A DNA stretch of 64,000 nt. It comes from Halomonas campaniensis. GTDB lineage: Bacteria; Pseudomonadota; Gammaproteobacteria; Pseudomonadales; Halomonadaceae. Shown in pieces: positions 965-49,271 of this stretch. Positions within the stretch are counted from its first letter, which is position 1. Every line of letters starts with the position of its first letter. The stretch spans positions 1 through 64,000 of the forward strand of contig NZ_JACHZF010000017.1 of the NCBI RefSeq assembly GCF_014193375.1. Direction: 5' to 3'. Below the pieces are notes generated by a model that saw only the letters and a program-made list of their open reading frames with translations, ran no database searches and had not been told where the DNA came from. Made by a program: the position numbers and the translations under genes.

Positions 965-1032
965 ATGGCAGTCCCCCAACTGGTCCCCCAAATGATTTTG
1001 CACTGGGGAGCGTTTCATCCAGTCCCCCCATA
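965..1032. repeat. Short GTCCCCC repeats next to the attachment remnant
   Basis: AGTCCCCC occurs at 970-977 and 1021-1028, and GGTCCCCC at 982-989. Clusters of short repeats close to an attachment site can serve as integrase arm-binding sites. That role is only an inference here. No gene is visible between 755 and 1466. Confidence 0.3.
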
Positions 1033-1050
1033 GCCACTGATTATCCTCAC

Positions 1051-1099
1051 GTCCCACGTCCCACGTCCCACGTCCCACGTCCCACGTCCCACGTCCCAC
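1051..1099. repeat. Perfect tandem heptamer array (GTCCCAC)7
   Basis: Seven uninterrupted copies of the 7-mer GTCCCAC run from 1051 to 1099. Both sides are flanked by the variant CCTCAC (1045-1050, and within GTCCTCACGTC just after the array). The array lies outside any gene. The minus-strand reading frame through it only repeats the motif as protein and is not credible as a gene. From 1110 to 1391 I see no gene, apart from a short doubled CTGGCCTCCTT at about 1171-1192. Confidence 0.9.
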
Positions 1100-1391
1100 G
1101 TCCTCACGTCGCAGACGGCAATCCGCTCGGCCAGGGTGGGGCGCGCCTGTTGTTCAGTCGAGCTACTATCTGGCCTCCTTCTGGCCTCCTTATCGATCTG
1201 CAGGAACTGGCGTGCACGGCGCCAACGGCTGTCTATGCAGCCCGAACACGCCCGCTCTCCAAGCCAACCCGGATAGAAGCCTGGCCAGCATCCCCCGCCT
1301 GGCTTTGCTGAGGGTCACCTCGTTAAGTGCAATACCTGAACGGGGTGTCCACTGCTGCCGGGCAAGATCAGTAAACGCGGTGGGTTGACGG

Positions 1392-1413
1392 AAAAAACCC
1401 CGCCGAAGCGGGG
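1392..1413 (-). terminator. Rho-independent terminator of the leftward iol operon
   Basis: Read on the minus strand, the stem CCCCGC/GCGGGG around a TTCG tetraloop is followed by six T residues. It lies about 55 bases beyond the iolB stop codon and ends the rpiR-iolG-iolB transcript. Confidence 0.8.
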
Positions 1414-1466
1414 CGAAGAGACGTCAGGTCGGAGAGACTGAGGCTGACGTTGCGGGTGTCACCCGC

Positions 1467-33179: not shown

Positions 33180-33185
33180 CTTCCC

Positions 33186-35222
33186 CTAGGGTCCCTCGTC
33201 GGCCTGCAGGTCGGTGGGCGGGATGCGGTCGGCACCCCAGCTGCGGTGGATATGGCCGATCACCCGGTCGAGCTCCTCCTGGGTGATCTCGGCCAGCTCG
33301 CCGCGCTCCAGCGGGTCGTAGTGGAAGATGTAGAGGCGCGAGGCGAACTGCTCGAAGGGCAGCGAGGCCTCGCCGAAGCGCTCGCCGTGGCCGGCGGTGC
33401 TCACCTTGATCCCGTCGCCCCAGTCCTGGCCGCTGTCGTTGTTGGGGTTGAAGAAGTAGACCCGCATCACGTCGGAGGGGTCCAGGGAGACCCGCAGCAC
33501 GGTGATGGCGTGCCAGCCGATGAAGCGTGCGGCGCTGTCGGTGACGGCGATACCCGCCGGCTGGGGATGGATCAGCGGCTGGTTGCCGTTGTAGTAGGGG
33601 TGGTAGCTGGCATAGAAGTGGCGCAGGAAGGTATCCAGCTCATGGAGCTGGCCGCTGGCCACGTCGACGTTGATGCGAAAGCCGCGCCCGGACCACCAGC
33701 CGTGGAACTCCGGGTTGACCCAGCGGTGGGGGTCCCCCTCGCGGCCGATGCAGCGCCGCCCCATCTCGGCGTAGATGCGGTCCAGATGGGGCACCACGAT
33801 CAGCGATACCGGGTCGAGGTCCATGGGCAGGCTCTGGGCCACCCCCGAGAGGCTGGCCATGGAGGAGATCGGCTGGCCCTCGAAGTGCATGATGATCTCG
33901 TCGTCACGGGCCGCCCAGGCCACCATCTGCAGCAGGTAGTCCGGGTCGTTGTAGGCCCACATGGAGAGCGCCCGGGCCGACTGGCAGGTGGGGTTGTTGC
34001 CCTGGCCCACGCCCAGCGGCTGGCCGAGCATGCACAGTACCCCCTCCAGCAGGCGGGCCCGCGGCGAGATCGCCTCGCCGAAGGCCAGGTTCAACCGCGC
34101 CTGGGACCACTCGGAGAGCGTCAGCCCCAGTTGGCGCCACATGGCCGGTGCCACCGGGGGCTGGTAGAGGATGCCGCGCTCCAGCATCAGCGCCAGGCCG
34201 TAGACGGCCTGGGGAGTGGCCGGATGCACGCCGCCGCGGATCAGCGCCGAGACCAGCTCGCGGTAGCAGAGCAGGCAGTCGCGGCCGGTGGAGGAGAGGC
34301 CCAGCGCCTCGGCCAGCAGGTGGTCGCCGTGGTCGAGCAGGTGGCGCAGCAGCACCGGGTGATAGGGCGAGACCAGGCCGGTGTCGTGCATCGCCCGGGC
34401 GAAGCCGGTGGCCTCGCCCTGCAGGGCGGCGGCGTCCATGCTGGAGAGCCGCTCGCGGTAGGGCTCGATGCCGGGGTCCTCGCGGCAGGCCCGGGTCGGG
34501 CCGAACAGCGAGCTGACCAGGCGGTCGGCCCCCTGGCCGCTGGCCCCCAGGTCGATCTCCGGGTTGGCCTGGCAGATCGCGATCTGGGTGATCATCGCCT
34601 TGACCGGCTCCACCTGGATGGGGCGCTGCTGGAGGATGCGCCAGATCTCGTCGATTAGGCGGTCGATGATGTGCTCGTAGCCGATGCGCTCGGCCAGGTG
34701 GCGGAACAGGTGACGGGGGATCTGCGCCAGGCGCCCCTGGGTCTCCCGCTCGGCCTCGCTGGGCGCGCCGAACAGCAGCCACAGGTTGATCGCCATCACC
34801 TGGGTCAGGTAGTGGTGCGCCTGCTCGGCCGAGACCATGGGGTGCAGGTACTCCCCCTTGGCCACGGCCAGCAGCCGCAGTTCGCTCAGCGCCTCGATCA
34901 CCACGGTGTTGGGGTCGGGGCTCTTGAGCGCATGGGTGGTCAGCGAGGGCACCAGGTACTGGGGCGTCTCCCAGTCGGAGCCGAGGAACACCCCGGCCTC
35001 CTCGAAGGCCCTGGCACGTTCCTCGATGGCGGCGGCGCCGCCCTCCTGGAGGAGCACCCGGCGGGCGGTATCCAGGACGCGGGGGAGCTTGCCGGGCTTG
35101 GCGAACTCCCGTGCGCTCGCCAGCAGGGCGATCGCCTCGTCCAGTTTCTGGCAGAGGCCGGCGAGCCTGTCGCTGGCCTCTGTCGTTGCACTGGTGTCTT
35201 GCGTCTGTCGGTGCGTGGTCAC
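33186..35222 (-). CDS. Uncharacterised 678-residue protein with a papain-like Gln/Cys-His-Asn signature
   Basis: I do not recognise a named family. The N-terminal 380 residues look mostly helical and soluble, with no signal peptide. From residue 400 a papain-like pattern appears. Q407-G-N-N-P-T-C413 has the oxyanion-Gln to catalytic-Cys spacing of papain (Gln19, Cys25). H571 in GWHAITVLRV is then followed by hydrophobic strands and N592 in VYFFNPNND, with WGDG at 601-604. Hydrolase or acyl-transferase activity on a peptide or amide is inferred. The GTG start at 35222 lies five bases after GGAG. It is 46 bases downstream of an ATP-grasp ligase gene on the same strand, the pairing expected for a make-and-cut or modify-and-trim peptide system. 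Confidence 0.6.
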   Translation of the reverse strand: MTTHRQTQDTSATTEASDRLAGLCQKLDEAIALLASAREFAKPGKLPRVLDTARRVLLQEGGAAAIEERARAFEEAGVFLGSDWETPQYLVPSLTTHALKSPDPNTVVIEALSELRLLAVAKGEYLHPMVSAEQAHHYLTQVMAINLWLLFGAPSEAERETQGRLAQIPRHLFRHLAERIGYEHIIDRLIDEIWRILQQRPIQVEPVKAMITQIAICQANPEIDLGASGQGADRLVSSLFGPTRACREDPGIEPYRERLSSMDAAALQGEATGFARAMHDTGLVSPYHPVLLRHLLDHGDHLLAEALGLSSTGRDCLLCYRELVSALIRGGVHPATPQAVYGLALMLERGILYQPPVAPAMWRQLGLTLSEWSQARLNLAFGEAISPRARLLEGVLCMLGQPLGVGQGNNPTCQSARALSMWAYNDPDYLLQMVAWAARDDEIIMHFEGQPISSMASLSGVAQSLPMDLDPVSLIVVPHLDRIYAEMGRRCIGREGDPHRWVNPEFHGWWSGRGFRINVDVASGQLHELDTFLRHFYASYHPYYNGNQPLIHPQPAGIAVTDSAARFIGWHAITVLRVSLDPSDVMRVYFFNPNNDSGQDWGDGIKVSTAGHGERFGEASLPFEQFASRLYIFHYDPLERGELAEITQEELDRVIGHIHRSWGADRIPPTDLQADEGP

Positions 35223-35238
35223 GCCGACTCCTTGTCGT

Positions 35239-35266
35239 CAGGCTGTCATTTTTTCCATGACGCCTG
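35239..35266 (-). promoter_or_regulatory. Intercistronic hairpin between ATP-grasp and papain-like genes
   Basis: On the minus strand CAGGCGTCAT pairs with ATGAC and GCCTG across one bulged base, with a GGAAAAA loop. No T run follows, so it may adjust message stability between the two genes rather than end transcription. Confidence 0.45.
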
Positions 35267-35268
35267 TA

Positions 35269-36492
35269 TCAGACATAGAAATCAAGCTCTTCCATATGCT
35301 TGAGCAGTTCCTTCATGCGCGCCGCCTCGTCGCCCTTGAAGTAGACCAGGCCCCAGTGGGTACCGAAGGCGGTGCGCTTGGTGACGGTCTCCTCCATCGG
35401 CGGGGTCAGCTCGTGGGACTCGAAGTAGGGGTCGTCCTCGACCTCCTCGGGAATCTCCAGCTTGCTGACCACGCGGCGGCGCGGATAGACCCCGAAGCAG
35501 CCGGCGAAGCCGTCGGCATCCACCACCTCCTTCGGGAAGAAGGCGGCGACCTCCTCCGGGGTGCTCTTGGGGTCGAAGACCAGCATGGAGGCCTGGTAGG
35601 CGTTGAAGCCATAGACCCGCTCGAGCAGCTCGAACACCTTGAAGCCCGGCGGCCGATAGGCCACCTCGCCGAAGTACATCTCGCCGTCGCTGGTGACGAA
35701 GTACTCGGGGTGGATCAGGCCGAACTCGATGTCGAAGGCCTTGATCAGCTTCTCGATCTGCGCCGTGATCTGCGGGCGGTAACTCTCGAGTTCCGGCGAG
35801 GCCGGCACGAATACCGAGTAGCCCAGGGTCACGTACTCGGAGATATTGAGGAAGGCGATCTTGCCGTTGTGGATCCAGGCCTCCACGGCAAACTCCCAGC
35901 CGTCCAGGTGCGACTCCATCAGCACCGGGAACTCCTCGTCGGGGATGGTATCGACCTCGTCCGGCGTGCGGATCACCCGATGGCCCAGGCAGCCGGCCTT
36001 GTCGAAGGCCTTGAGGTGGATGGGGTCGTTGGGGTCGCCGTCGAGCTTGAGCAGCGTCTGGTTGACCCGCTTGAGGAAGCGCACGACGTCCTCCTTGTCG
36101 TGGGCCTCCTCGAAGATGCCCACGCGGATGCCGCCCAGCTGGGCGCGGCGCTTCATCAGCGCCTTGTCGCGCAGCAGCAGCGACTGGCCGTAGATTCGTG
36201 GGCTGTCGAGCAGCACCGAGTTGATGGCGCCGGCCCACTCCACGGTCTCCTCGAACAGCGGGATGGCCACGTCGACGCCCATCTCCTGCAGGGTGTGGGC
36301 GATCTCCATCGAGCGGTCGTTCAAGCGTTCGAAGTTCCAGGGCACGTAGGGGATGTCGTGCTTCTGGCAGTACTCTTCCGCCCAGTCCGGGGCGACCACC
36401 ACGTAGCGTCGGTCGAAGTTCTCGGCGGCTTCGATGGCGTTCAGGCTCCAGCCCAGCAGGGCGATGTAGCCCTTGTTCGGATCCTTCTTCAT
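35269..36492 (-). CDS. ATP-grasp domain ligase
   Basis: A 407-residue ATP-grasp enzyme, expected to join a carboxylate to an amine or thiol through an acyl-phosphate. A Rossmann-like N-terminal domain (about 8-100, GYIALLGWSLNAIEAAENF) is followed by the ATP-grasp core. Visible core parts are K161 in HLKAFDKAG, E193 in LMESHLDGWEFAVEAWI and the metal-binding strand MYFGEVAYRPPG with E276. ATG 36492 is chosen because GGAGG lies six bases upstream and upstream codons look non-coding. The substrate is unknown; it is nearest in style to carboxylate-amine ligases. It begins a leftward operon with the papain-like protein and tlyA. Confidence 0.82.
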   Translation of the reverse strand: MKKDPNKGYIALLGWSLNAIEAAENFDRRYVVVAPDWAEEYCQKHDIPYVPWNFERLNDRSMEIAHTLQEMGVDVAIPLFEETVEWAGAINSVLLDSPRIYGQSLLLRDKALMKRRAQLGGIRVGIFEEAHDKEDVVRFLKRVNQTLLKLDGDPNDPIHLKAFDKAGCLGHRVIRTPDEVDTIPDEEFPVLMESHLDGWEFAVEAWIHNGKIAFLNISEYVTLGYSVFVPASPELESYRPQITAQIEKLIKAFDIEFGLIHPEYFVTSDGEMYFGEVAYRPPGFKVFELLERVYGFNAYQASMLVFDPKSTPEEVAAFFPKEVVDADGFAGCFGVYPRRRVVSKLEIPEEVEDDPYFESHELTPPMEETVTKRTAFGTHWGLVYFKGDEAARMKELLKHMEELDFYV

Positions 36493-36635
36493 GGGGCGCC
36501 TCCAGATGTCGGCAATGGGTGAAGCCTCCCGGGTATGGAGTCGGCTCGAGAGGCAGGGGATGCCCTTCACCATACAGCACTGGAAGGCGACTCACACCCT
36601 TGCAGCGCAGCGCGCCATCGCGACTCCCCTTGCCC

Positions 36636-36664
36636 TTGCCGCCCGGCAGGCGCGCTGGTATAGT
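36636..36664 (+). promoter_or_regulatory. Promoter for the 4.5S RNA gene
   Basis: TTGCCG and TATAGT are separated by exactly 17 bases. Transcription would begin near 36670 and give a leader of about 55 bases before the mature RNA, to be removed by processing. Confidence 0.6.
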
Positions 36665-36726
36665 GCCGTCGCACTCGGCAAGTCATTGATCGCTCGCCGG
36701 GTTTGACACCCAGCGTGTCATGTCGT

Positions 36727-36836
36727 GGTGGCCCCGTCGGTCCTCCCGCAACGCTAGACCGCAAACCCCGCCAGGCCCGGAAGGGAGCAACGGTAGTGGT
36801 GGACGCGTGTGCCGGGATGTGGCTGTCGGGGCCGCC
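36727..36836 (+). ncRNA. ffs: Signal recognition particle 4.5S RNA
   Basis: The sequence carries the bacterial small-SRP hallmarks CCCGGAAGGGAGCAACGG (the GGAA tetraloop and domain IV) and GACGCGTGTGCCGGGATG, the strongly conserved 3' half. The ends pair over ten bases (GGTGGCCCCG with CGGGGCCGCC, one GU), which sets the borders at 36727 and 36836 and a length of 110 nt, close to E. coli 4.5S. The RNA binds Ffh and guides inner-membrane proteins to FtsY and the translocon. It lies alone between genes on the opposite strand. Confidence 0.95.
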
Positions 36837-36868
36837 TCCTTTTCGGGCTCCGGCCTTTTCGATTTTTT
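36830..36868 (+). terminator. Possible terminator of the 4.5S RNA transcript
   Basis: GGCCG (36830-36834) can pair with CGGCC (36851-36855), and the sequence then runs TTTTCGATTTTTT. The left arm overlaps the mature RNA 3' end, so the two structures would compete. Confidence 0.4.
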
Positions 36869-36932
36869 CCTCTCCCGCGCGCCTGCCTCTCGTCCACCGA
36901 GCCGTCGATCGACGCCTCTTGCGGTGCGACGT

Positions 36933-37388
36933 TTACCTGCCCCCCTCCCAGTGCTTCTGCATCTCGATGAAGGTCAGCGAGGCCGACCAGGTGATCAGCA
37001 TGAAGCCGGTGAGCGCCTCGGTGCCCATGAGAAAGCGGATATGGCCCTGGGGCACCAGGTCGCCGTAGCCGAGGGTGGTATAGGTCACGGCCGAGAGATA
37101 GACATGGTCGAGGAAGGTGAGCGACTCGAAGCCGGCGAGGCTGCCCGCCAGGGGGTGGTCGAGCAGTAGCCAGGCGGCCAGGCCGAACAGCCAGATCTCG
37201 GCGATATGCGCGCCCAGCAGGCCGAAGATCAGCACCAGGAAGCGCCGCCGCTGGGTGCCGGACGCCTTCTCCATCAGCCGGCTCAGCGCGATGGCGACCT
37301 CGTAGTGCAGCAGCACGCAGGCCACCACCACGGCGAAGGTGGTGCCCGCCACCAGCCAGTGGCCCGTATCGACCCAGTCTCCCGTCAC
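36933..37388 (-). CDS. Two-helix potassium-channel-family protein
   Basis: A 151-residue membrane protein with an extra N-terminal helix pair (about 10-30 and 48-76) and then the pore module. That module has a pore helix and selectivity filter TYTTLGYGDL near residues 101-110, followed by the inner helix FLMGTEALTGFMLITWSASL. This is the Ion_trans_2 pattern. The sequence TLGYGD rather than TVGYGD is a common bacterial variant. The GTG start at 37388 has AGGAG nine bases upstream. No regulatory RCK domain is present. It is probably monocistronic. Confidence 0.85.
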   Translation of the reverse strand: MTGDWVDTGHWLVAGTTFAVVVACVLLHYEVAIALSRLMEKASGTQRRRFLVLIFGLLGAHIAEIWLFGLAAWLLLDHPLAGSLAGFESLTFLDHVYLSAVTYTTLGYGDLVPQGHIRFLMGTEALTGFMLITWSASLTFIEMQKHWEGGR

Positions 37389-37446
37389 GTTCGGCCGCTC
37401 CTGCGATGGCTCACGATGGCAGCCTACACCAGGTCAGTCACCCCGG

Positions 37447-38247
37447 TCAGCCAGCGGCCGCTGCGCCGGGCGAGGCCTGCCCCAGATGCTTGCGCAGGAA
37501 GTGGCGGGTGCGCTCCTGGTCCGGATTCGAGAAGAGCTTGTCGGGCGTGTCGGCCTCCACCACCACGCCGCCATCCATGAACATCGCCCAGTCGGAGACG
37601 TCGCGGGCGAAGGCCATCTCGTGGGTGACGATCAGCATGGTCATGTGCTCCTCGGCCAGGCCCTTCATCACCCGGTTCACCTCCTCCACCAGCTCCGGGT
37701 CCAGCGCCGAGGTGGCCTCGTCGAACAGCATCACCTTGGGCTGCATGGCCAGGGCGCGGGCGATGGCCACCCGCTGCTTCTGGCCCCCGGAGAGGGAGCT
37801 CGGGTAGGCCCGTGCCTTGTCCGCCAGTCCCACGCGCTCGAGCAGCTCCATGCCCAGCTCCCGGGCGGCCCCGGCATTCATGCCCTTGAGCTTCCTGGGC
37901 GCCAGCGTCACGTTCTCCAGGGTCGAGAGGTGGGGAAACAGGTTGAAGTGCTGGAACACCATGCCCATGTTCTGGCGGATATGGTTGATGTGCCGCTCGA
38001 AGGCCAGCCCCTTGAGGTCGGGCCGGTTCACCTGCACGCCGTCCAGCAGGATCTGCCCCTCGTCGATCACCTCCAGGTTGTTGATGGAGCGCAGCAGCGT
38101 GCTCTTGCCCGACCCGGAGGGGCCGATGATGGAGATGATCCTGCCGCGGTCGACCCTCAGGTCGATGCCCTTCAGCACCTCAAGGTCACCGAAGCGTTTC
38201 TTGATCCCCTTGAGCTCGACCATCGGGGTGTCTGTCGTCTGTGTCAT
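37447..38247 (-). CDS. Amino-acid ABC transporter ATP-binding protein
   Basis: A 266-residue polar-amino-acid-type ATPase (GlnQ/HisP class) with Walker A GPSGSGKST near 45, signature LSGGQKQR near 153, Walker B VMLFDEATSALD near 173 and the H-loop VTHEMAFARDVSD. ATG 38247 lies after CAGAGG and begins MTQTTDTPMVELKGIKKRF. It is the last gene of a four-gene uptake operon. Its position downstream of an aminotransferase, CoA-transferase and deacylase operon suggests that the transported compound feeds that pathway. Confidence 0.9.
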   Translation of the reverse strand: MTQTTDTPMVELKGIKKRFGDLEVLKGIDLRVDRGRIISIIGPSGSGKSTLLRSINNLEVIDEGQILLDGVQVNRPDLKGLAFERHINHIRQNMGMVFQHFNLFPHLSTLENVTLAPRKLKGMNAGAARELGMELLERVGLADKARAYPSSLSGGQKQRVAIARALAMQPKVMLFDEATSALDPELVEEVNRVMKGLAEEHMTMLIVTHEMAFARDVSDWAMFMDGGVVVEADTPDKLFSNPDQERTRHFLRKHLGQASPGAAAAG

Positions 38248-38272
38248 GCGAGAACCTCTGGAACGGGGCGGG

Positions 38273-38926
38273 TTAGCGGCGATAGGCGGCACGGCGCTCG
38301 ATCCACGTCTGGCCGGCTTCCATCATCAGGTTGATCAGGTAGTAGATGACCGCGATGGTGATGTAGAACTCGAAGGGCCGGAAGGTCACGCTGATGGCGT
38401 ACTGGGAGACATAGACCATCTCGCCGATGCCGATGGCCGAGAGCACCGAGATATCCTTCACCATGATGATCATGTTGTTGCTGAGCTGGGGCAGGGCGCG
38501 ATAGAAGGCCTGAGGCAGGATGATGTAGAGCAGCGTCCTCAGGTGGCCGAAGCCCAGTGACCGCGACGCCTCGTACTGGCCGCTCGACACCGAGCGGATG
38601 GTGGCGATGAAGATGTCGGCGTTGTAGGCCATGTAGTGGAAGCCCAGGCCCAGGATCCCCACCACGATGGCCGGTATCAGGATCAGCTCGCCGAGGCCGA
38701 AGTAGAGGAAGTAGAGCTGCAGCAGCAGCGGGGTGGTCATGAACAGCCAGATGAAGAAGCGCAGCGGCCAGCTGACCACCTTGCGGGTATACAGCGAGAT
38801 GACCGCCACGATCTGGCCGCCGAGGATCGACATCGCGGCCACGGCCAGGCCGATCAGCAGGGTGACGCCCACGCCCTTCAGCAGCGTGGGGAAGTAGGTG
38901 ATGACGGGACTGAAGTCGAATTCCAT
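38273..38926 (-). CDS. Amino-acid ABC transporter permease (second)
   Basis: A 217-residue HisM/GlnP-type permease with five membrane helices. The EAA-loop motif SSGQYEASRSLGFGHLRTLLYIILPQAFYRALP (about 115-147) contacts the ATPase. It pairs with the neighbouring permease of near-identical size to form a heterodimeric channel. It lies 25 bases upstream of the ATPase start. Confidence 0.88.
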   Translation of the reverse strand: MEFDFSPVITYFPTLLKGVGVTLLIGLAVAAMSILGGQIVAVISLYTRKVVSWPLRFFIWLFMTTPLLLQLYFLYFGLGELILIPAIVVGILGLGFHYMAYNADIFIATIRSVSSGQYEASRSLGFGHLRTLLYIILPQAFYRALPQLSNNMIIMVKDISVLSAIGIGEMVYVSQYAISVTFRPFEFYITIAVIYYLINLMMEAGQTWIERRAAYRR

Positions 38927-38959
38927 GGGGCTGTCCTGGTGGTTGTGGCCCGGCAGGCG

Positions 38960-39616
38960 TTACAGGAAGGTGTAGCGCGTGGCTCGGCGGTAGAGGAACT
39001 CCACGAGGCCCATGACCGCATAGATGATGACGATGTACATCAGCGCACTGAGGGTGAAGACCTCCAGGGGCTTGTAGGTGGAGCCGATCAGCCGCTGGGC
39101 CTGGTAGGTCAGCTCGACCACCGAGATGATCGAGACCAGCGAGGAGTTCTTGACCAGGATGATCGCCAGCACCCCGACCGAGCGGATCATCAGGCCGGCC
39201 GCCTGGGGCAGGATGATGTGCTGCAGCGTGGCCAGGCGGCCGAAGCCCAGCGAGCGCGATGCCTCGTTCTGGCCGCTGTCCACCGATTCGATGGCGCCGC
39301 GCATGGCCTCGCTCATGTAGGCCCCGATGTTGAAGGCACCCACCACCACCCCGCAGGTGAAGGGGTCGAGGCGCAGGCCGATCGCCGGGCCGCCGTAGAA
39401 GACCAGCAGCAGCTGCACGAAGTAGGGGGTGCCACGCACCACGCTGATATAGGCGCGGGCCAGCCAGCGCAGCGGTGGCAGGCGCGCGGTCCTGAGGGCC
39501 ACCAGCGCCGTGGCGATGAAGAAGCCGAAGAACAGGGCGCGGGCCGAGATGTCCAGGGTGACCCAGGCCGCCTTTACCAGCAGCGGCGTGATGTCGATCA
39601 TCAGGTTGATGTCCAT
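38960..39616 (-). CDS. Amino-acid ABC transporter permease (first)
   Basis: A 218-residue permease of the same class, with the EAA loop SGQNEASRSLGFGRLATLQHIILPQAAGLMI. It is homologous to, but clearly diverged from, the second permease, as usual for HisQ/HisM-type pairs. It follows the binding-protein gene after a 92-base gap that contains a strong hairpin. Confidence 0.88.
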   Translation of the reverse strand: MDINLMIDITPLLVKAAWVTLDISARALFFGFFIATALVALRTARLPPLRWLARAYISVVRGTPYFVQLLLVFYGGPAIGLRLDPFTCGVVVGAFNIGAYMSEAMRGAIESVDSGQNEASRSLGFGRLATLQHIILPQAAGLMIRSVGVLAIILVKNSSLVSIISVVELTYQAQRLIGSTYKPLEVFTLSALMYIVIIYAVMGLVEFLYRRATRYTFL

Positions 39617-39667
39617 GGTCGTCGTGACCCTGTCGTTGTGATTGTCATGATGAGGTCAGGCGGGCAG

Positions 39668-39698
39668 GCACCGGCAGGGCTTTCGCCCTGCCGTGCCG
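39668..39698 (-). promoter_or_regulatory. Intercistronic hairpin after the binding-protein gene
   Basis: CGGCAGGGC and GCCCTGCCG form a 9-bp stem around a four-base loop, extended by GGCA/TGCC. There is no T run. It probably raises the level of binding-protein message relative to the permease genes. Confidence 0.55.
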
Positions 39699-39708
39699 AG
39701 GCGAGGCG

Positions 39709-40512
39709 TCAGTTGAAGTCGACGCCTTCGCCGATCCAGGTGTCGACGATCGCCTGGTAGGTGCCGTCCTCCCGGATCTCGGCCAGCGCGGTGTTGAGCG
39801 CCTCGCGGAGTTCCGGAGAGCCCTTCTGCACGGCGATGGCGGCCGGGAAGCGCGGCAGCTCGCCCACGTCGACCTGCCTGATGGGGAGGTCATTCTCGTT
39901 GAGCGCGACATAGACGGGGATGTCGTCGGCCACCATCACGTCGATCCGCCCGGTGGTGAGGGCATTGAGCATGTCCGGCAGCCCCTGGAAGGTCTGGTTG
40001 CGCCACCGCCCCTCGGCCTGCTCGGTGGCCCACTGGTTGCCCGTCTCGCCGAGGGTCGAGCCGACCCGCTTGCCGGCGAAGTCATCGATGCTGGCGACGT
40101 CGTCGGTCTCCTCCCGCACCCAGATCGAGAGGCCCGAGCTGTAGTAGGCGTCGGTGAAGTCGACGGCCTTCTGGCGCTCCTCGGTGGCGCTCATGCTGCA
40201 GATGCAGGCATCGAAGCGTCCGCCGGCCAGGGCCGCGACGATGCCGTTCCAGGGTGAGGTCTGGATGTTCACCTCGACGCCCATCCTGTCGGCCAGGGCC
40301 TCGGCGATGTCCACGTCGAAGCCGATGAGGTTGCCGGCCGTGTCCACGAAGCTGAAGGGCGGGTAGGCGCCGGAGTTGGCGACCTGGAAGACGTCCTCCC
40401 GGATCTCCGGAAGGTCCCGGGCCTGGGCCGGCAGGATGGCCAGGGTGGTGGCGCCCAGCAGCGCCAGGGTGCCCATCAGGGGGCGAAGAAAGGGCTTGTT
40501 GTGCTTTTTCAT
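39709..40512 (-). CDS. Amino-acid ABC transporter substrate-binding protein
   Basis: A 267-residue periplasmic SBP_bac_3 protein. The signal peptide occupies about 1-32 (KPFLRPLMGTLALLGATTLAILPAQA). The mature part has the family stretch FVDTAGNLIGFDVDIAEALADRMG and the Arg-containing DACICSMSATEERQKAVDFTDAYY that binds the alpha-carboxylate. ATG 40512 gives the clean signal sequence; upstream codons do not. It is the first gene of the uptake operon. The exact amino acid is unknown; context suggests an amino acid or acyl-amino acid catabolised by the adjacent operon. Confidence 0.88.
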   Translation of the reverse strand: MKKHNKPFLRPLMGTLALLGATTLAILPAQARDLPEIREDVFQVANSGAYPPFSFVDTAGNLIGFDVDIAEALADRMGVEVNIQTSPWNGIVAALAGGRFDACICSMSATEERQKAVDFTDAYYSSGLSIWVREETDDVASIDDFAGKRVGSTLGETGNQWATEQAEGRWRNQTFQGLPDMLNALTTGRIDVMVADDIPVYVALNENDLPIRQVDVGELPRFPAAIAVQKGSPELREALNTALAEIREDGTYQAIVDTWIGEGVDFN

Positions 40513-40674
40513 GTCGATACCTGCGTGTTGTCGTTGGTGAAAAGCGGCTCGGGGAGCCATCTGGCGTCCATGACGCCGGTGCGTTCCGAAGCGAATCGCT
40601 GACGGTTGGTGGGACCCTCCTTTCCCGCCCGTGAGGCGGGAGTTTCGAAACTGGTCGGTTGCCGTCGTCACCCG

Positions 40675-41865
40675 TCATGCACGCTCGAGGATCACGGCGA
40701 TGCCCTGGCCGCCGCCGATGCAGGCGGCCGCACAGCCGTAGCGCTTGCCCTCGGCTTGCAGGATGCGGGCCAGGGTGCCGGCCAGGCGGACGCCGGTGGC
40801 GCCGAGCGGGTGGCCGAGCGCCAGGGCGCCGCCCCAGACGTTGACCCGCTCGGGGTCCAGTGCCAGCTCACCCATGGCGTGCAGCGGCACGGCGGCGAAG
40901 GCCTCGTTGATCTCCCAGGCGTCGATATCGGCCACGGCGAGGCCCGTCCGGGCCAGCACGCGGTGGATGGCGGCCGCCGCCCCGGCGCCCATCCGCTCGG
41001 GTTCGACCCCGCAGTCGGCGACGCCCACCACCCGGGCCAGCGGCGTGGCGCCATGGCGCGCCAGCCCCTCCCCGGACATCAGCAGGGCGGCGGCGGCCCC
41101 GGAGGTGAGCGGCGAGCTGTTGCCGGCGGTCACCCGGCCGCCCGCCAGGAACACCGGGTCGAGGCCGGCCAGCCGCTCGGCGCTGGTGTCGGCACGGATA
41201 TTGGCGTCCCGGGCGACCGGGTCGCCCCCGGCGTTGGCCAGGGCCAGGCGCTCGCCGTCGAAGCGTCCCGCGGCCTCGGCCGCGGCGGCTCTCTGGTGTG
41301 AGGCCAGGGCGAAGGCGTCCATGGCCTCGCGATCGATGCCGGCGGCCTCGGCCAGGCGCTCGGCGGTCAGGCCCATGTTCAGGGCCACGTCGAGCTCCAG
41401 CCACGGGGCCTGGCGCAGCGCGGCGGGGCGGGTCAGCACCCCCTCCTGGAAGAGCGCCGGGCCCATGGGGACCCGGGTCATGTTCTCGACGCCGCCGGCG
41501 ATGCCCACCTCGATGGCGCCGGCCTGGATCTCCCGGGCGGTGCTGCGCAGGGCAGCGAGCCCCGAACCGCACTGCTGGTCGATCTGGCGGCTGGCACAGG
41601 CGCGGCCCCGCTCGCCGAGGCGCCCGGCGAGCCACAGCGGGTAGCGGCCGCCGAAGCTCCACTGCTCCTTGACCGGCAGGGCGCAGCCGACGCTCAGCTC
41701 CTCCACGGCGGCGCCGTCGAGGTCGCGGCGTTCCAGCAGGGCGTCGATCACGGCGGCCAGCAGGGCATCGCTGCGGGTATCGGCCCAGGCGTCCACCTCC
41801 GGCTTGCGGGGGTGGGCGCGGGTGAAGGCGCTGCGGGCGTAGTCGACGAGATAGGCGTCTCTCAT
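40675..41865 (-). CDS. Thiolase-family acetyl-CoA acyltransferase
   Basis: A 396-residue biosynthetic/degradative thiolase. The nucleophilic cysteine is in QQCGSGLAALRS near 95, the second-half motifs NEAFAAVPLHAM and GGALALGHPLGATG carry the catalytic His, and CIGGGQGIAV carries the second Cys. It would cleave a 3-oxoacyl-CoA with CoA, which is logical after the CoA-transferase encoded upstream. Its ATG overlaps the M20 gene stop by four bases. It is the last gene of a five-gene operon. Confidence 0.88.
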   Translation of the reverse strand: MRDAYLVDYARSAFTRAHPRKPEVDAWADTRSDALLAAVIDALLERRDLDGAAVEELSVGCALPVKEQWSFGGRYPLWLAGRLGERGRACASRQIDQQCGSGLAALRSTAREIQAGAIEVGIAGGVENMTRVPMGPALFQEGVLTRPAALRQAPWLELDVALNMGLTAERLAEAAGIDREAMDAFALASHQRAAAAEAAGRFDGERLALANAGGDPVARDANIRADTSAERLAGLDPVFLAGGRVTAGNSSPLTSGAAAALLMSGEGLARHGATPLARVVGVADCGVEPERMGAGAAAAIHRVLARTGLAVADIDAWEINEAFAAVPLHAMGELALDPERVNVWGGALALGHPLGATGVRLAGTLARILQAEGKRYGCAAACIGGGQGIAVILERA

Positions 41866-43145
41866 GCGCTCGGCTCCTGTGGGGTGGCCTGCTGTCCCCA
41901 GCGGTGGAGGAACAGCGCGTAGGTGGTCAGCACGTGGCGGATGGAGTCGATCTCCACGCACTCGTCCACGCCGTGGATGCGCTCGGCCACCGGGCCGTAG
42001 CAGGTGCCGTTGATCCCCCCGGCGACGTGGAAGGCGCGCAGGTCGGTGGTGCAGGTGGCGAGGTAGTGGGCCGGCAGTTCCCCCAGCAGCGCTTCGTGGC
42101 AGGCCGAGAGCAGCCGGATGCCGGGAGTGTCCAGGTCGACCAGGTGGCCCTCGGAGCGGAAGCCGTGGAAGCTGACCCGGGGCGGGGGCGTGGCGTCGTC
42201 GAGCTCGGCATGGCGGGCCATGATGGCCTCGCGCACCCGGCGCATGGCCGCCTCGGGCGTCATGCCCGGCGGGAAGCCGACGCGCCCCTCGAGGATGGCG
42301 TGGGCCGGCACGCTGGAGGCCCAGTTGCCGCCCTCCACCCGCCCGACGCTGAGGTTGAAGGGGTGGGGGTGGCCTTCGTAGGGCGCCGGGCGGGGCAGGG
42401 CGTTGATCTCCGCTTCCAGGGCCTTGAGGGCGGGCAGGTACTGCTGCAGGGTCTCGATGGCATTGCGGCCGGCGGCGGTGTCCAGCACGTGGGCGGGCAC
42501 CCCGTCGAGGCGCATGCGGAACCACAGCACGCCCACCTGGCCGCTCAGTATCCGGGCGCCGAAGGGCTCGGGGATCAGCACGAAGTCGCCGCCGTAGCCC
42601 TGGTGGAGGCAGGCCAGGGCGCCGTTGCCGGTGCACTCCTCCTCGATCACCGTCTGCAGGGTCAGCGGGAAGTCGATGGCCACCCCGGCCCGGCGTACCG
42701 CTTCCACCGCCATCACCATGGCGGCGATGCCGGCCTTCATGTCGCCGGCACCGCGGCCGTAGAGCCAGCCGTCCTTCTCCCAGGGCTCCCAGGGCGGCCG
42801 GGTCCACATGTCGGTGGGCTCGGCGGGCACCACGTCCAGGTGGCCGTTGAACACCAGGTGGGGCTTGTCGCTCTGGGGATTGAGCCGGCTGACCAGATTG
42901 TAGCGCCCCTCGCTCGACCATTCGGTGGGCACCCGGTGGGGGTGCTCGGCAAGGCCCGGGGCGTCCAGGGGCACCCGGGTCACCGGCAGGTCCAGCCGCG
43001 CGAGCCAGGCCTCCATGGTCTCCAGCGCGCCCTGCTCCCGGCCCAGCACGCTGTAGCCGCGCACCAGGTCGCGGGTCAGCGCCAGGGTGTCGTCCATCAG
43101 CGCTTCGCAGGCCGCGACGATGCGCGTCTCGGTGGCATCCAGCAT
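41862..43145 (-). CDS. M20-family deacylase/peptidase (ArgE/DapE type)
   Basis: A 427-residue metal-dependent amidohydrolase. The two-zinc site is marked by FNGHLDVVPAE near 100, GRGAGDMKAGIAAM near 131 and the catalytic pair in IEEECTGNGA near 168, with a later His in GGINGTCYGPVAE-adjacent sequence. Family members remove N-acyl groups from amino acids or split dipeptides. In this operon it could free the amino acid that the aminotransferase then deaminates. It abuts the CoA-transferase beta gene, with a one-base overlap. Confidence 0.85.
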   Translation of the reverse strand: MLDATETRIVAACEALMDDTLALTRDLVRGYSVLGREQGALETMEAWLARLDLPVTRVPLDAPGLAEHPHRVPTEWSSEGRYNLVSRLNPQSDKPHLVFNGHLDVVPAEPTDMWTRPPWEPWEKDGWLYGRGAGDMKAGIAAMVMAVEAVRRAGVAIDFPLTLQTVIEEECTGNGALACLHQGYGGDFVLIPEPFGARILSGQVGVLWFRMRLDGVPAHVLDTAAGRNAIETLQQYLPALKALEAEINALPRPAPYEGHPHPFNLSVGRVEGGNWASSVPAHAILEGRVGFPPGMTPEAAMRRVREAIMARHAELDDATPPPRVSFHGFRSEGHLVDLDTPGIRLLSACHEALLGELPAHYLATCTTDLRAFHVAGGINGTCYGPVAERIHGVDECVEIDSIRHVLTTYALFLHRWGQQATPQEPSA

Positions 43146-43798
43146 CAGAACCTCCCCAGCCGTGATTCATCGATGAGCAGCGGTGCCTCGGTGGCCGCCT
43201 GCAGGTCGGCAGGGTCGAGCCCCTCGGCGATGTCCACCACGGCAAGCCCCGCCGGGGTGACGTCCATCACCGCCTTGTCGGTGATGATGCGCGACACGCA
43301 GCCGCTGGCGGTGAGCGGCAGGCGGCAGCGCGCCAGTATCTTGGGGTTGCCGTGCTTGTCATTGTGGGAGCAGAGCACCACCAGCCGCCTGACCTTCTGG
43401 GCCAGCTCCATGGCGCCGCCGATCCCCGGCGAGAACTTGCCGGGGATCTTCCAGTTGGCCAGGTTGCCGGCCGCGTCGACCTCGAAGGCGCCCATGAAGG
43501 TAAGGTCGACCCGGCTGCGCCGGATCATGGCGAAGGAGGTGGCGCTGTCGAAGACGCTGGCCCCGGGGCGGGTGGTGATGTAGGCCCCGCCGGAGTCGAT
43601 CATGTCGTGGTCCGGCGCCTCGCCGTCGCGGCGCGGCCGGCAGCCCAGCACGCCGTTCTCCGAGTGCACCAGCACCTCCATCTCGTCGGGCAGGTAGTGG
43701 AAGAGGCGGGTCGGCAGGCCGATGCCGAGGTTGACGATCTGGCCGGGGATCACCTCCCGGGCGGCCCGGGCCAGGATGCGCTGGGTGTCAGAGGCCAT
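43145..43798 (-). CDS. 3-oxoacid CoA-transferase, beta subunit
   Basis: A 217-residue class I CoA-transferase subunit with the catalytic glutamate in HSENGVLG near 48. The glycine-rich stretch GKFSPGIGGAMELA and the conserved VVLCSHNDKHGNPKIL follow. The ATG at 43798 overlaps the alpha-subunit gene end by 11 bases. With the alpha subunit it moves CoA from succinyl- or acetyl-CoA to a 3-oxo acid, preparing it for the thiolase. The acid is not identifiable from sequence. Confidence 0.88.
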   Translation of the reverse strand: MASDTQRILARAAREVIPGQIVNLGIGLPTRLFHYLPDEMEVLVHSENGVLGCRPRRDGEAPDHDMIDSGGAYITTRPGASVFDSATSFAMIRRSRVDLTFMGAFEVDAAGNLANWKIPGKFSPGIGGAMELAQKVRRLVVLCSHNDKHGNPKILARCRLPLTASGCVSRIITDKAVMDVTPAGLAVVDIAEGLDPADLQAATEAPLLIDESRLGRF

Positions 43799-44489
43799 GG
43801 GGGCGCACTCCCTGTTCGCTGGTGGCACGGTCGACCTGCACCACCTGGCTGACGAAGGCGCAGGGGGTGTGGATGGCATCGATGGGCAGCTCGCCCGGCG
43901 CGTCGAGGCGGTAGGCCTGGGCGATCACCTGCTCGGCGGCCATGGCCATCAGCGGGTTGAAGTTGCTGGCGGTGGCGCGGTAGATCAGGTTGCCGTAGCG
44001 GTCGGCCCGCTCGGCGTGCACCAGGGCGACATCGGCGTGCAGGGCGGGCTCGATGCCCCAGCAGCGGCCGTCGAGCTCGATCTCCCGGCGACCCGCGGCG
44101 ATCTCGGTGCCCAGGCCGATGTCGGTGAGAAAGCCCCCGTGGCCGGCGCCGGCGCAGCGGATCTTCTCGGCGAGCAGGCCCTGGGGGTGGAAGCTCACCT
44201 CAAGTCGCCCGGCATTCATCGCCTCGATGGCGGTGCGGTTGAGCCCCAGGTGGGAGGTGATCAGCCGCCTGACGCGGCCGGCCTCGATCAGCCTGCCGAT
44301 GCCGATGCCGGGCTCGTTGGCGTCGTTCTTGATCAGGGTGAGCCCGCCCTGGCCGGATTCCAGCAGGGCGTCGAGCAGTGCGAAGGGGGTGCCGGGCGAG
44401 CCGAACCCGCCGACCATGATCGTCGCCCCCTCGGGGATGGCGGCCACGGCCGCCTGGATGTCGCGGACCTTCTCGGTGAGCAGCGTCAT
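43788..44489 (-). CDS. 3-oxoacid CoA-transferase, alpha subunit
   Basis: A 233-residue partner subunit, beginning MTLLTEKVRDIQAAVAAIPE and carrying the family GGFGSPGTPFALLDALLE motif near 28 plus NLIYRATASNFNPLMAMAA near 175. ATG 44489 overlaps the aminotransferase gene by four bases. The two subunits are of usual length and arrangement (alpha before beta). Confidence 0.88.
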   Translation of the reverse strand: MTLLTEKVRDIQAAVAAIPEGATIMVGGFGSPGTPFALLDALLESGQGGLTLIKNDANEPGIGIGRLIEAGRVRRLITSHLGLNRTAIEAMNAGRLEVSFHPQGLLAEKIRCAGAGHGGFLTDIGLGTEIAAGRREIELDGRCWGIEPALHADVALVHAERADRYGNLIYRATASNFNPLMAMAAEQVIAQAYRLDAPGELPIDAIHTPCAFVSQVVQVDRATSEQGVRPHGL

Positions 44490-45856
44490 GACGGGCGGAC
44501 CTCCGTCGGCCGGGCGGTGGGGGCAGCGGCCTCGTCGGCCAGCGCCCGGTCGAAGCGCGCCATGGCCCGCGCCAGGCGCTCGAGCAGGGTCTCCACCTCC
44601 GCGGCGGTGATGGTCAGCGGCGGGGTGACCAGGAAGTGGTCGCCGGCCACGCCGTCCAGGGGGCGGCGGGGGTAGATCAGAAGCCCCGCTTCCCGGGCCA
44701 GGGCGGTGATCTGGGCGAAGCGGTTCTGCTCGGCGGGGAAGGGCTCGCGGGTCGTCGGGTCGGCCACCAGCTCCACGCCCCACAGCAGGCCGAGGCCGCG
44801 CACCTGGCCGACCCAGGGATAGCGCCCGGCCAGCGCCCGCAGACCGGCCCCGAGCTGCTCGCCGCGCGCCCGAGTGTTGGCCAGCAGCCCCTCGCGGCGG
44901 ATCGCCTCGATGACGGCGAGGCCGGTGGCGCAGGCCAGCGGGTTACCGGCGTAGGTATGGCCGTGCTGGAAGCCTCCTCTCGCCATGACCTCGGCGACGA
45001 TGTCGCTGCGAGTCAGCAGTGCCCCCACCGGGTAGTAGCCCGCCCCCAGTCCCTTGGCGGTGGCCAGCAGGTCGGGGACGACGCCGTAGTGCTGCCAGGC
45101 GAACCAGGCGCCGGTGCGGCCCACGCCGGTGAGCACCTCGTCGAGGATCAGCAGGCAGCCGGCCTCGTCGCACAGCGCGCGGATGCCCTTGAGGTAGCGC
45201 TCGCCCAGCAGCCGGGCGCCGGTGCTGGCGCCGCCCACCGGCTCCAGCACGAAGGCGATGATCGACTCGGGGCCGGCGGCCTCCATGGCCGCGCGGGTCT
45301 CGGCCAGCACCCGGTCCACATGGGCGTCGTCGTCGGCGTCCCGGTGGCGGTAGAAGTCCGGTCCCGGCACCTTGAGCGAGGCGTGGATGAGATCGGTGAA
45401 GGGGGCCTCCAGGGGCCGGTAGCCGGTGACGCCCAGCGCGCCCAGGGTGCTGCCGTGGTAGGAGGGGCGCAGCGAGACGAAGCGCCGCCGCCGAGGTTCG
45501 CCGATGGCGACGAAATACTGCCGGGCCAGCTTGAGGGCCGACTCCACCGCTTCCGAGCCGCTGGAGACGAAGAACACCTTCTCCAGGGCGCCGCCGGTGA
45601 GTTCCACCAGGGCATGGCCCAGGGCCAGGGCAGGGGCGCTCTCGAACTGGGTGCGGTAGGTGAAGGCGACGCGGTCGAGCTGGGCCAGCATGGCGTCGCG
45701 GATGTCCTGGCGACCGTGGCCGAGGTTGCAGGAGATGGCGCCGGAGCAGCCGTCCAGGTATTCCTTGCCCTGGGTGTCCCAGAGGGTGACGCCGTCGGCG
45801 TGGCTGACTTCCGGCAGGGCGGGGCCGGCCTGGTAGAACAGCGGAGAGTCGGTCAT
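44486..45856 (-). CDS. Class III pyridoxal-phosphate aminotransferase
   Basis: A 456-residue aminotransferase of the omega/ornithine type. FFVSSGSEAVESALKLAR near 95 binds phosphate, LILDEVLTGVGRTG near 231 holds the Asp that pairs with the pyridine nitrogen, and LATAKGLGAGYYPVGAL holds the Schiff-base lysine near 267. Such enzymes act on omega- or beta-amino groups as well as alpha-amino acids. Being followed by CoA-transferase and thiolase, it most simply makes a 3-oxo acid from a beta-amino acid. It heads the five-gene operon and faces a divergent LysR gene. Confidence 0.88.
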   Translation of the reverse strand: MTDSPLFYQAGPALPEVSHADGVTLWDTQGKEYLDGCSGAISCNLGHGRQDIRDAMLAQLDRVAFTYRTQFESAPALALGHALVELTGGALEKVFFVSSGSEAVESALKLARQYFVAIGEPRRRRFVSLRPSYHGSTLGALGVTGYRPLEAPFTDLIHASLKVPGPDFYRHRDADDDAHVDRVLAETRAAMEAAGPESIIAFVLEPVGGASTGARLLGERYLKGIRALCDEAGCLLILDEVLTGVGRTGAWFAWQHYGVVPDLLATAKGLGAGYYPVGALLTRSDIVAEVMARGGFQHGHTYAGNPLACATGLAVIEAIRREGLLANTRARGEQLGAGLRALAGRYPWVGQVRGLGLLWGVELVADPTTREPFPAEQNRFAQITALAREAGLLIYPRRPLDGVAGDHFLVTPPLTITAAEVETLLERLARAMARFDRALADEAAAPTARPTEVRPS

Positions 45857-45922
45857 CGAGGCTTCCGTTTGTCGTTATGGTGATGTGAGGAGGCTCGATG
45901 CAGTCTAGGTAGCCGCGTCAGA

Positions 45923-45934
45923 ATATTTCAATAT
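45923..45934. promoter_or_regulatory. AT-rich palindrome between the aminotransferase and LysR genes
   Basis: ATATT-TC-AATAT lies in a conspicuous AT-rich island (GAATATTTCAATATATGATG) in an otherwise GC-rich sequence, 34 bases before the LysR start and 66 before the aminotransferase start. This fits the shared operator/promoter of a LysR-regulated divergent pair. Confidence 0.45.
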
Positions 45935-45968
45935 ATGATGTTTTTACCGAATTCGATGAGTTTGAGTC

Positions 45969-46889
45969 ATGGCGGACGTGACCATCCACTCCCTCAAGGC
46001 GCTGGCGGTCTTCAAGACGCTCTACGAGGCGGGCAGCGCCTCCCAGGCGGCGCGGACCCTGGGCATCACCCAGTCCGGGGTCAGCCGCTCGCTGGCCCAG
46101 CTCGAGGAGAACCTCGGGATCCAGCTGTTCCTGCGCGAGAAGAACCGCCTGGTGGCCACCCCCGAGGCCGGCGAGCTCTACGACGAGATCCTGCGGCTGA
46201 TGGGCAACATCGAGGAGCTGCGCCACAGCGTGCTGGCGCTCAAGGAGTTCGGCACCTCGCGGCTGCGGATCGCCTCGATCCCCGGCCTCTCCTTCGGTTT
46301 CGTGCCGAGCCTGGTGGCGGCGCTGCTGGAGGAGAATCGCCGCTTCAGCGTCAGCCTCGACATGATGTCCAGCCACGAGGTACAGCTGGCCGTGGAGTCG
46401 AGCCATGCCGATATCGGCTTCGTCACCCTGCCGGTGGCCTCGCGGGTGCTGGAGGTGGAGCCCTGGTTCACCACCGAGGCGGTCTGCCTGCTGCCGGCGG
46501 CCCACCCCCTGGCGGACCAGGCGCGGATCGGCATCGAGGACCTGCGCGACCAGCACCTGGTGATCAGTAACCAGCCAAGCATCAGCACCAACCCGCTGCT
46601 CGAGCTGGTCGCCCGTCACGGCATCCGCATCGCCGGCAAGACCGAGGCCAATATCGGCACCATCACGGCGCTGGTGGCCAACGGCGTGGGGGTCACGGTG
46701 ATGAACCCGGTGACCGCCCGGGACCAGCTCTCGTCCGGGGACCCGGTGGTGGTGCGGCCGTTCCACCCGGCCATGGCGTTCGGCTTCGGCCTGGTCTATC
46801 GCGGCGAGTGGAAGCGTGCCCGGGCCCTGGACTTCCTGCGCGAGCGGGGCCGGGGGCTGGTGGCGCGCTACACCGCCACCCCGGGGTAG
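45969..46889 (+). CDS. LysR-family transcriptional regulator
   Basis: A 306-residue regulator with N-terminal winged HTH (about 5-63, ALAVFKTLYEAGSASQAARTLGITQSGVSRSLAQLE) and a type-2 periplasmic-binding-like effector domain from about 93 to 300. Its divergent position 112 bases from the aminotransferase operon suggests that it activates or represses those genes in response to a pathway intermediate. Confidence 0.9.
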   Translation: MADVTIHSLKALAVFKTLYEAGSASQAARTLGITQSGVSRSLAQLEENLGIQLFLREKNRLVATPEAGELYDEILRLMGNIEELRHSVLALKEFGTSRLRIASIPGLSFGFVPSLVAALLEENRRFSVSLDMMSSHEVQLAVESSHADIGFVTLPVASRVLEVEPWFTTEAVCLLPAAHPLADQARIGIEDLRDQHLVISNQPSISTNPLLELVARHGIRIAGKTEANIGTITALVANGVGVTVMNPVTARDQLSSGDPVVVRPFHPAMAFGFGLVYRGEWKRARALDFLRERGRGLVARYTATPG

Positions 46890-46986
46890 GTCGCCGGGCA
46901 CGGCAGGGCACCGCCGCGACCCGGCGGGGATGGCGCGCCCAGGCGGCGCATGGCATGGTCACGGCATGACCCTTCAGGATGGCAGG

Positions 46987-48021
46987 ATGATCACCTTTCA
47001 CAGCGAGACCACCAAGGCGCGCCGGGCGCGCACCGAACTGGATGGCGGGCGGCTGGTGGCGCCCTACTAGTGCCCCGAGCGCGTCGACCTGGTGCTGGCG
47101 CGGATCCAGGCATCGGGCCTGGGCGAGGTGCGTGCCCCCGGCGACTACGGCCTGGCGCCGGTCCTGGCGATCCACGACCGCGACTACGTCGACTTCCTGG
47201 CCGGCTGCTGGGAGGCCTGGCAGGCGGCCGGCCGCCAGGGCGAGGCCATTGCCTGGGTCTGGCCGACCCGGACCATGCCCGGGCGACGCATCCCGGTGCA
47301 CATCGACGGCCGACTGGGCCATTACGCCCTGGGCGCCGATACCTCCATCTGCGAGGGCACCTTCGAGGCCGCCATGGCCAGCAAGGACGTGGCGCTGGCC
47401 GCGGTGGACCACCTGCTGGCCACCGGCGAGCCGGCCTTCGGGCTGTGCCGTCCGCCGGGACACCATGCCGCCACCGACCAGTTCGGCGGCTACTGCTTCT
47501 TCAACAATGCGGCCATCGCCGCCCAGCGAGCCCTGGACGCCGGCCACGCCCGGGTGGCGGTGCTGGATATCGACTTCCACCACGGCAACGGCACCCAGCA
47601 GATCTTCTACGCCCGCGACGACGTGCTGTTCCTGTCGCTGCACGGCGATCCGCTGCACTGCTTCCCCCACTTCCTGGGCCATGCCGAGGAGACCGGCGAG
47701 GGCGCAGGCGAGGGCTTCAACGTCAACTACCCGCTGCCGCCGGGCACCGGCTTCGCGGCCTGGGCCGAGGCCCTGGAGGATGCGCTGGCCCGCATCCGCG
47801 AGGCGGGCTGCGAGCTGCTCGTGGTGTCGCTGGGGGTGGATACCTTCGAGGGCGACCCGATCAGCGCCTTCCGGCTGGCCAGCGACGACTTCCTCGAGGT
47901 GGGGCGGCGCCTGGCGCGGCTCGGGCTGCCGACGGTGTTCCTGCTCGAGGGCGGCTACGCGGTGGAGGAGATCGGGGTGAACGTGGTCAACGTGCTGGCG
48001 GGGTTCGAGGGCCGCGGCTGA
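46987..48021 (+). pseudogene. Histone-deacetylase/acetylpolyamine-amidohydrolase-like gene with in-frame amber codon
   Basis: Residues 1-27 (MITFHSETTKARR...LVAPY) form the normal start of a class II deacetylase-like protein. A TAG at 47068-47070 follows, and the frame then continues with CPERVDLVLARIQ to the natural stop. All catalytic motifs survive downstream: PPGHHAATDQFGGYCFFNNAA, DIDFHHGNGTQ and LEGGY. A single base change from a sense codon, such as GAG (Glu), explains the stop. A GTG at 47092 could restart translation but would lose the N-terminal strand and loop. Family enzymes deacetylate acetylpolyamines or other acetylated amines. It may be a recent pseudogene, a sequencing error or a readthrough gene. 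Confidence 0.75.
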
Positions 48022-48057: not shown

Positions 48058-49008
48058 TCAGCCCTTCTGGCCGCGCTGGCGCTGCTGCACCTGCAGCGCA
48101 TCCATGCGGCTCTTCAGGGCGGCCTGGGTGGCCTGCAGCGCCTCGGCGCGGATCTCCGCCTTGGTGGCGCGCTGGCCGGCCTCCTGCGCCTGCTTCAGGG
48201 CGTCCTGGCGGGTGCGCTCCACGGCATCCAGCCGCTCCTTGTGCTCGGCGCGCAGCTCGGCCACCTCCTGGCGGTGGCGGGTGCGCTCGGCCTGGAGCTC
48301 CTTCTGCACGCCGGCCAGCTGTTCGGTCTTCTCGCCGGCCTGGGACAGGGCGGCGTCGCGCTGGGTCTCGGCCACCGCCTGGCAGCGCTCGGCCTGGACG
48401 CGCTCCCCCTCGGCGCCGCGCACGCGGCGCTCGGCGGCCAGCCGCTCCTGCTGGGCGGCCTCGAGCTGCTCCTTGAGCATCGCCACCTGCTGGCGCGACT
48501 GGATCAGGGCCTCCTGTGCCTCCCGCGCCGCGCGACGCTCGCTCTCCAGTTCGCCGCTGAGGTGCTCCGCCTCGGCCTTCAGCGCCTCCCGGCGCTCCCG
48601 GGCCTCGTCCCGCTCCGCCTCCGAGCGCTGCAGGTGGCCCTCCAGCTCGGCCACGCGCCGCTCCAGGGCCTCGCCGCTCTCGGCCAGGGTGGCGGCATCG
48701 GCGCGCGCTTCCTCCGCCGCCTGCTCCCCCTCGGCCCGGGCGGCCGCCACCTGGCGCGCGATCTCCCGGGTGAGGGCGTCGACCAGGTCGTCGGGCGGCA
48801 CCGGTGCCGCCCGCGGCGGGGTCGGGCGCGTGTCGCGCCAGGTTGTCAGGTGGCGCTGGATGCGGTGGGGCGAACCGCCGCCCAGGTGCTCGCAGACCCG
48901 CTGCAGGGTCGGCTCCGCGCCGCGGTTGATCAGGTTCTCGGCGGCGGCGGCCACCTGCTCCTGGGTCATGCCGGCCGTGGGGCCGGTGTCGGGATGCTCT
49001 CGGCTCAT
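48058..49008 (-). CDS. KfrA-type DNA-binding coiled-coil protein
   Basis: A 316-residue protein. The N-terminal domain (about 14-65, MTQEQVAAAAENLINRGAEPTLQRVCEHLGGGSPHRIQRHL) matches the KfrA_N DNA-binding fold. The remainder (about 85-300) is an almost uninterrupted alpha-helical coiled coil rich in Glu, Arg, Ala and Gln. KfrA was described on IncP plasmids as a repressor and partition accessory; chromosomal relatives are less studied. ATG 49008 follows CAGGGAAGAC. No plasmid genes are nearby. It could organise DNA or act as an autorepressor. Confidence 0.8.
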   Translation of the reverse strand: MSREHPDTGPTAGMTQEQVAAAAENLINRGAEPTLQRVCEHLGGGSPHRIQRHLTTWRDTRPTPPRAAPVPPDDLVDALTREIARQVAAARAEGEQAAEEARADAATLAESGEALERRVAELEGHLQRSEAERDEARERREALKAEAEHLSGELESERRAAREAQEALIQSRQQVAMLKEQLEAAQQERLAAERRVRGAEGERVQAERCQAVAETQRDAALSQAGEKTEQLAGVQKELQAERTRHRQEVAELRAEHKERLDAVERTRQDALKQAQEAGQRATKAEIRAEALQATQAALKSRMDALQVQQRQRGQKG

Positions 49009-49271
49009 GTCTTCCCTGCGTGATGGCGTGCCGTTCTCTGGGCCTTGCGGCCCCAGACTAGCACAGCCCGCCGGCGGGGAACCCTGCGCCGTTCGCATGG
49101 CAGCGGGAGCGTCGGCGGTCGGCGACGAATGGGCTTGGAGGATTGCGGGGAGCGGACCACACTGGTAGCGACAGCGGCCGGCCAGAGGAAGCGAGGGGTA
49201 TGGCAATCAGGCGAGGGTTCGAGCATGGCCGGTAGCGACCCGTGCCAGGCAGGTCGGGCGGGGCGACGGCC

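Follow-up and report, generated by a model that had tools for sequence, protein, structure and literature searches.

The window, which is the whole 64,000-nucleotide stretch analyzed here (positions 1 to 64,000 of contig 17, NZ_JACHZF010000017.1, of the Halomonas campaniensis assembly GCF_014193375.1), contains what appears from its sequence to be an acetylpolyamine amidohydrolase (APAH) gene interrupted by a single nonsense codon. The gene occupies positions 46987..48021 of the forward strand, from its start codon to its final TGA; the features given below are on this strand unless stated otherwise. The frame opens with ATG 46987, and its first 27 codons (46987..47067) are followed by an in-frame TAG at codon 28 (47068..47070), after which the same frame continues for 316 open codons to the TGA at 48019-48021. 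A putative Shine-Dalgarno-like sequence, CAGGA (46975..46979), recognized by eye, precedes ATG 46987 by 7 nucleotides (nt), and a further in-frame ATG is located upstream, at 46966. The first possible restart codon past the TAG is the GTG at codon 36 (47092..47094), 21 nt further on in the same frame; the first ATG after the TAG is 68 codons downstream. The TAG also gives the window one more CTAG site, a tetranucleotide that is rare and strongly depleted there (21 observed versus ~184 expected from single-base composition). GATC (391) and CATG (311) both occur above the expectation calculated in the same way.

A first-pass annotation, made from the sequence without database searches, had described the gene as deacetylase-like with intact metal-binding motifs. 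Both descriptions held, and the first can be made more precise. The part of the frame after the TAG matches the Pfam family PF00850 (Hist_deacetyl) at 2e-69, across positions 4-296 of the 298 in the profile. When the frame was compared with the PDB with an X at the position of the TAG, near end-to-end matches were obtained with 6phr_A (4.7e-131), 3q9b_A (3.9e-121), 9gkz_A (2.2e-120) and 3q9c_A (9.9e-120); no other PDB sequence reached E <= 1e-100. The histone deacetylase (HDAC)-type domain extends over the whole length and is nearest to solved APAHs, one of which, 6phr, is presumably from Marinobacter subterrani; these similarities indicate that the gene encodes an APAH of the HDAC superfamily, a group of enzymes that deacetylate acetylpolyamines as head-to-head dimers. 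The characteristic motifs are all intact: PPGHHA with its tandem His (47452..47469), DIDFHHG (47566..47586), GVDTFEGDPIS (47833..47865) with the PIS signature, and EGGY with the active-site Tyr (47947..47958). We take DIDFHHG, and the Asp in GVDTFEGDPIS, to provide the metal ligands. RPPGHH, PIS and EGGY, each present in the window gene, are motifs described for bacterial polyamine deacetylases in the consulted part of PMC11532494, which also gives 3Q9C as the Mycoplana ramosa enzyme. The window gene thus shares its N-terminus and its tandem His, metal-ligand, PIS and EGGY motifs with 6phr, 3q9b, 3q9c and 9gkz. In contrast, 3q9b has a Glu at residue 28, where the window gene has the TAG, and the break in the frame leaves no complete N-terminal L1 loop within one protein.

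We aligned the homologous coding sequences of 109 loci (L006-L114), which after merging of identical sequences gave 97 distinct homologues and, with the window, 98 rows. Codon 28 is a Glu codon in 96 of these homologues (GAG in 60, GAA in 36) and a Lys codon (AAG) in the remaining one, L040; all 97 therefore have a sense codon at the position where the window alone has TAG. The start codon is aligned with ATG 46987 in every homologue (94 ATG, 2 TTG and 1 GTG), in agreement with the first-pass view that this ATG opens a family-like N-terminus. Because all 97 start at this position and have a sense codon at position 28, the 27 codons ahead of the TAG are, as judged from the alignment, genuine coding sequence.

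A whole-frame match at E <= 1e-100 was obtained in 128 of 275 genomes of the family, the own genome included (131 matches, counted manually), and the frame is therefore not a chance one. Only two of the 131 matches contain a stop, the window with its TAG and a copy in genome G248 with a TGA. The latter was considered as a possible shared stop and rejected: inspection of this copy (L203; G248:C47:16500-19500, ~655-1675, minus strand) revealed a frameshift around residues 76-116, its codon 28 encodes Glu, and the assembly is ~80% complete. No other TAG-bearing match was present in the 275 family genomes, and a search of viral contigs for the precise sequence surrounding codon 28, in which one base was allowed to vary, gave 0 matches. 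Among the best 80 loci listed, the closest named ones are from H. saccharevitans (86%), H. denitrificans (85%) and H. rhizosphaerae (84%).

With codon 28 set aside, none of the 106 columns with conservation of 95% or more among the homologues is altered in the window, and its frame contains no insertion or deletion relative to the majority. The first-pass statement that more than 300 codons follow the TAG without other decay, so that the change is either recent or a sequencing error, is thereby upheld. An older pseudogene was rejected, since the highly conserved residues are all unchanged. Provided that selection on the gene has been absent since the TAG arose, the 0 changes over ~240 nonsynonymous sites would correspond to less than ~1.3% neutral divergence. 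The ratios of nonsynonymous to synonymous divergence (dN/dS, calculated by NG86) between the window and eight near relatives were 0.14-0.33, similar to those of 18 pairs among the relatives (0.09-0.36). The median dN of codons 2-27 relative to that of the rest of the frame was 1.67 for the window, the second highest of 13 values (1.11-1.88 for the 12 relatives), and dN/dS of codons 1-27 was noisy (0.22-0.72 over eight pairs). In these comparisons, no clear sign of separate decay of the N-terminal piece was seen.

The stop interrupts a frame that relatives have intact, and we consider it most likely, with a probability of roughly 0.7, that the gene is a young loss-of-function allele, i.e. a pseudogene of this strain produced by a very recent nonsense mutation. 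A single mutation would have changed the conserved Glu codon in the L1 loop into TAG, and ribosomes starting at ATG 46987 would stop after 27 residues, so that little or no active enzyme would be expected. The mutation is probably real in the cell, and activity has probably been lost. Some points weigh against this interpretation. The TAG is known from one assembly, of one genome of the species, and an assembly error is possible. The Lys at codon 28 of L040 implies that the residue is not essential, and low-level readthrough could therefore give some active enzyme. In addition, the bound on neutral divergence fails if the product is still made and selected.

The main rival explanation is that the TAG arose through an error of base calling or assembly, with the gene intact in the living strain, which we regard as fairly improbable. 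The assembly is a 3.93-Mb draft of 77 contigs, the gene has no other lesion, and none of the other family matches shares the TAG, all of which would fit an error. The completeness of the genome (99.98%, with contamination of 0.3%) speaks against an error, and single-base consensus errors are uncommon in a non-repeated stretch. We also screened 461 kb of the own genome (the window, contig C1 and 160 kb of contig C5) for codon bias on both sides of same-frame stops, a scan that is blind to frameshifts. A stricter first version missed the APAH gene, whose upstream score was 0.243 versus a threshold of 0.25; the thresholds were then set at or below the scores of this gene and are thus tuned to it, so that weaker cases can escape. 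Among 1730 same-frame neighbors, nine stops had a coding signal on both sides. Eight of these were judged by reading to be gene-to-gene junctions, with an ATG 1-11 codons past the stop (one of them precedes prfA), which on this reading leaves the APAH TAG as the only true interruption. In a comparison of open reading frames of four relatives with the part of the window from 18 kb to its end, each relative brought out the window's own stop at 47068; further stops in this comparison were, by reading, in overlapping shadow frames or ahead of a start codon. The clean appearance of the assembly is some evidence against a base-call error, although a single error is still possible.

The first-pass annotation had also offered two ways in which a real TAG might be tolerated, of which the first is that translation restarts at GTG 47092 and yields a shortened, working deacetylase. 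This GTG is in frame 21 nt past the TAG, and the remainder of the frame is intact. However, the N-terminal piece is retained in every one of the 97 homologues, whose starts align at 46987 and not at the equivalent of 47092, and by eye no Shine-Dalgarno-like sequence precedes the GTG. The codon aligned with it is GTG in 46 of the 98 rows, counting the window, and the remaining 52 rows have a different Val codon or an Ile codon; GTG 47092 is therefore not kept as a start. Glu17, which we take to line the polyamine site, is invariant (98/98 rows). The TAG itself aligns with residue 28 of the 3q9b sequence. According to the consulted part of PMC11532494, the N-terminal L1 loop of APAHs covers the active site as a lid and contributes to dimerization, and Phe27 of the M. 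ramosa enzyme is among the named contacts to the polyamine chain. Ile29 is also named there; by our count residue 29 of 3q9b is Ala, and only the region is relied on here. Since the TAG falls within the L1 loop, a product restarted at GTG 47092 would lose part of this loop, with its lid and dimer contacts, as well as Glu17. There is no positive evidence for a restart, and we consider a functional one highly unlikely.

The second way is readthrough of the amber codon, by regulation or suppression, with full-length enzyme made at a low level. Conservation of the frame extends to both sides of the TAG, and a survey of in-frame stops within frames under purifying selection (PMC7918605) describes them as widespread among bacteria and proposes that they reduce expression. 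The window gene resembles these cases in that its frame has a single stop and otherwise shows purifying selection; it differs in that its TAG is seen in one genome only. The same source describes the vast majority of such stops as short-lived, which argues against readthrough here, as does the fact that no relative has the TAG.

The decoding machinery points the same way. ARAGORN, run over stretches covering all 57 transfer RNA (tRNA) places of the draft genome, predicted 57 genes (counted manually). None of these places holds a tRNA with a CUA anticodon, either suppressor or pyrrolysine, although unassembled gaps may hold tRNAs; the draft set is visibly incomplete, lacking tRNA-Ile (gat) and tRNA-Ala (tgc). 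A CUA anticodon-loop pattern had 10 matches, versus 17 for a reversed control pattern. Four of the 10, on contig C7, fall within tRNA-Glu genes (ttc), one on C11 within tRNA-Arg (tct), and the one on C10 within the transfer-messenger RNA; the remaining four places contained no tRNA in a tRNA family search. The release factor 1 gene prfA (C5:18066-19148) is intact (552 bits versus a cut-off of 423). TAG also serves as the stop of the neighboring LysR gene and of 34 of the 246 long coding-like segments in the sample. Thus, with no CUA tRNA found, an intact prfA and ordinary use of TAG, nothing suggests suppression beyond background, and a recoded amber would stand here with neither a CUA tRNA nor a stop kept in related genomes. 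There is no positive evidence for readthrough, which we regard as very improbable. Slightly less probable still is that the strain makes use of the tolerated TAG, with low readthrough giving a trace of full-length deacetylase and thereby dimming expression.

Loss of the gene, as in the preferred interpretation of a recent nonsense mutation, is plausible in this genus, because an orthologue-like match (best E < 1e-140) was present in only 32 of 60 same-genus genomes (counted manually) and the strain has a paralogue; the APAH gene appears patchy and dispensable. The paralogue, at C1:120167, is 43% identical and matches the APAH structure 3men at 3.7e-83, and three further, more distant family members are present in the same genome. 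A second intact copy was sought and rejected, as these four other matches are at most 45% identical. In Pseudomonas aeruginosa, mutants in either of two APAHs had a lag ~6 h longer on acetylputrescine (PMC4784309, consulted in part).

Directly upstream of the APAH gene, a LysR-family regulator gene, identified from its sequence and a family match, occupies 45969..46889. In the 109 related loci, for which neighbors were counted within flanks of only 1.5-2.5 kb and with some genomes represented twice, a LysR gene stands beside the APAH gene in 19, and in all 19 an aminotransferase gene lies beyond it. On the other side, a gene for a KfrA_N-domain protein (48058-49206, minus strand, family match) adjoins the APAH gene, and one is near the APAH gene in 6 of the 109 loci. 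The region 40675-46889 also contains frames for an M20 deacylase, a CoA-transferase subunit B, a second CoA-transferase-like protein, a thiolase-like protein and a class III aminotransferase, with the thiolase-like frame and the second CoA-transferase subunit named from reading their translations. The frames from M20 to aminotransferase are on the minus strand, divergent from the LysR and APAH genes, and look like a catabolic cluster. Over ~33000-47000, the window is 85-95% identical per kb at the DNA level to genome G047, with mostly 70-84% on either side; genome G013 shows no such rise. The identity to G047 falls somewhere close to where the APAH gene begins (the 100-base steps blur the exact point), which would fit the end of a recombined tract at this place.

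A limited literature search, from which nothing firm follows about what is in print, gave no work joining Halomonas and acetylpolyamine among the papers listed. The case is an ordinary one and adds nothing new on the decoding of TAG. Annotations should record the gene as interrupted rather than as a shorter protein with its start at GTG 47092. Should the mutation be real, the strain may have lost one route for acetylated polyamines, with the paralogue as a possible backup.
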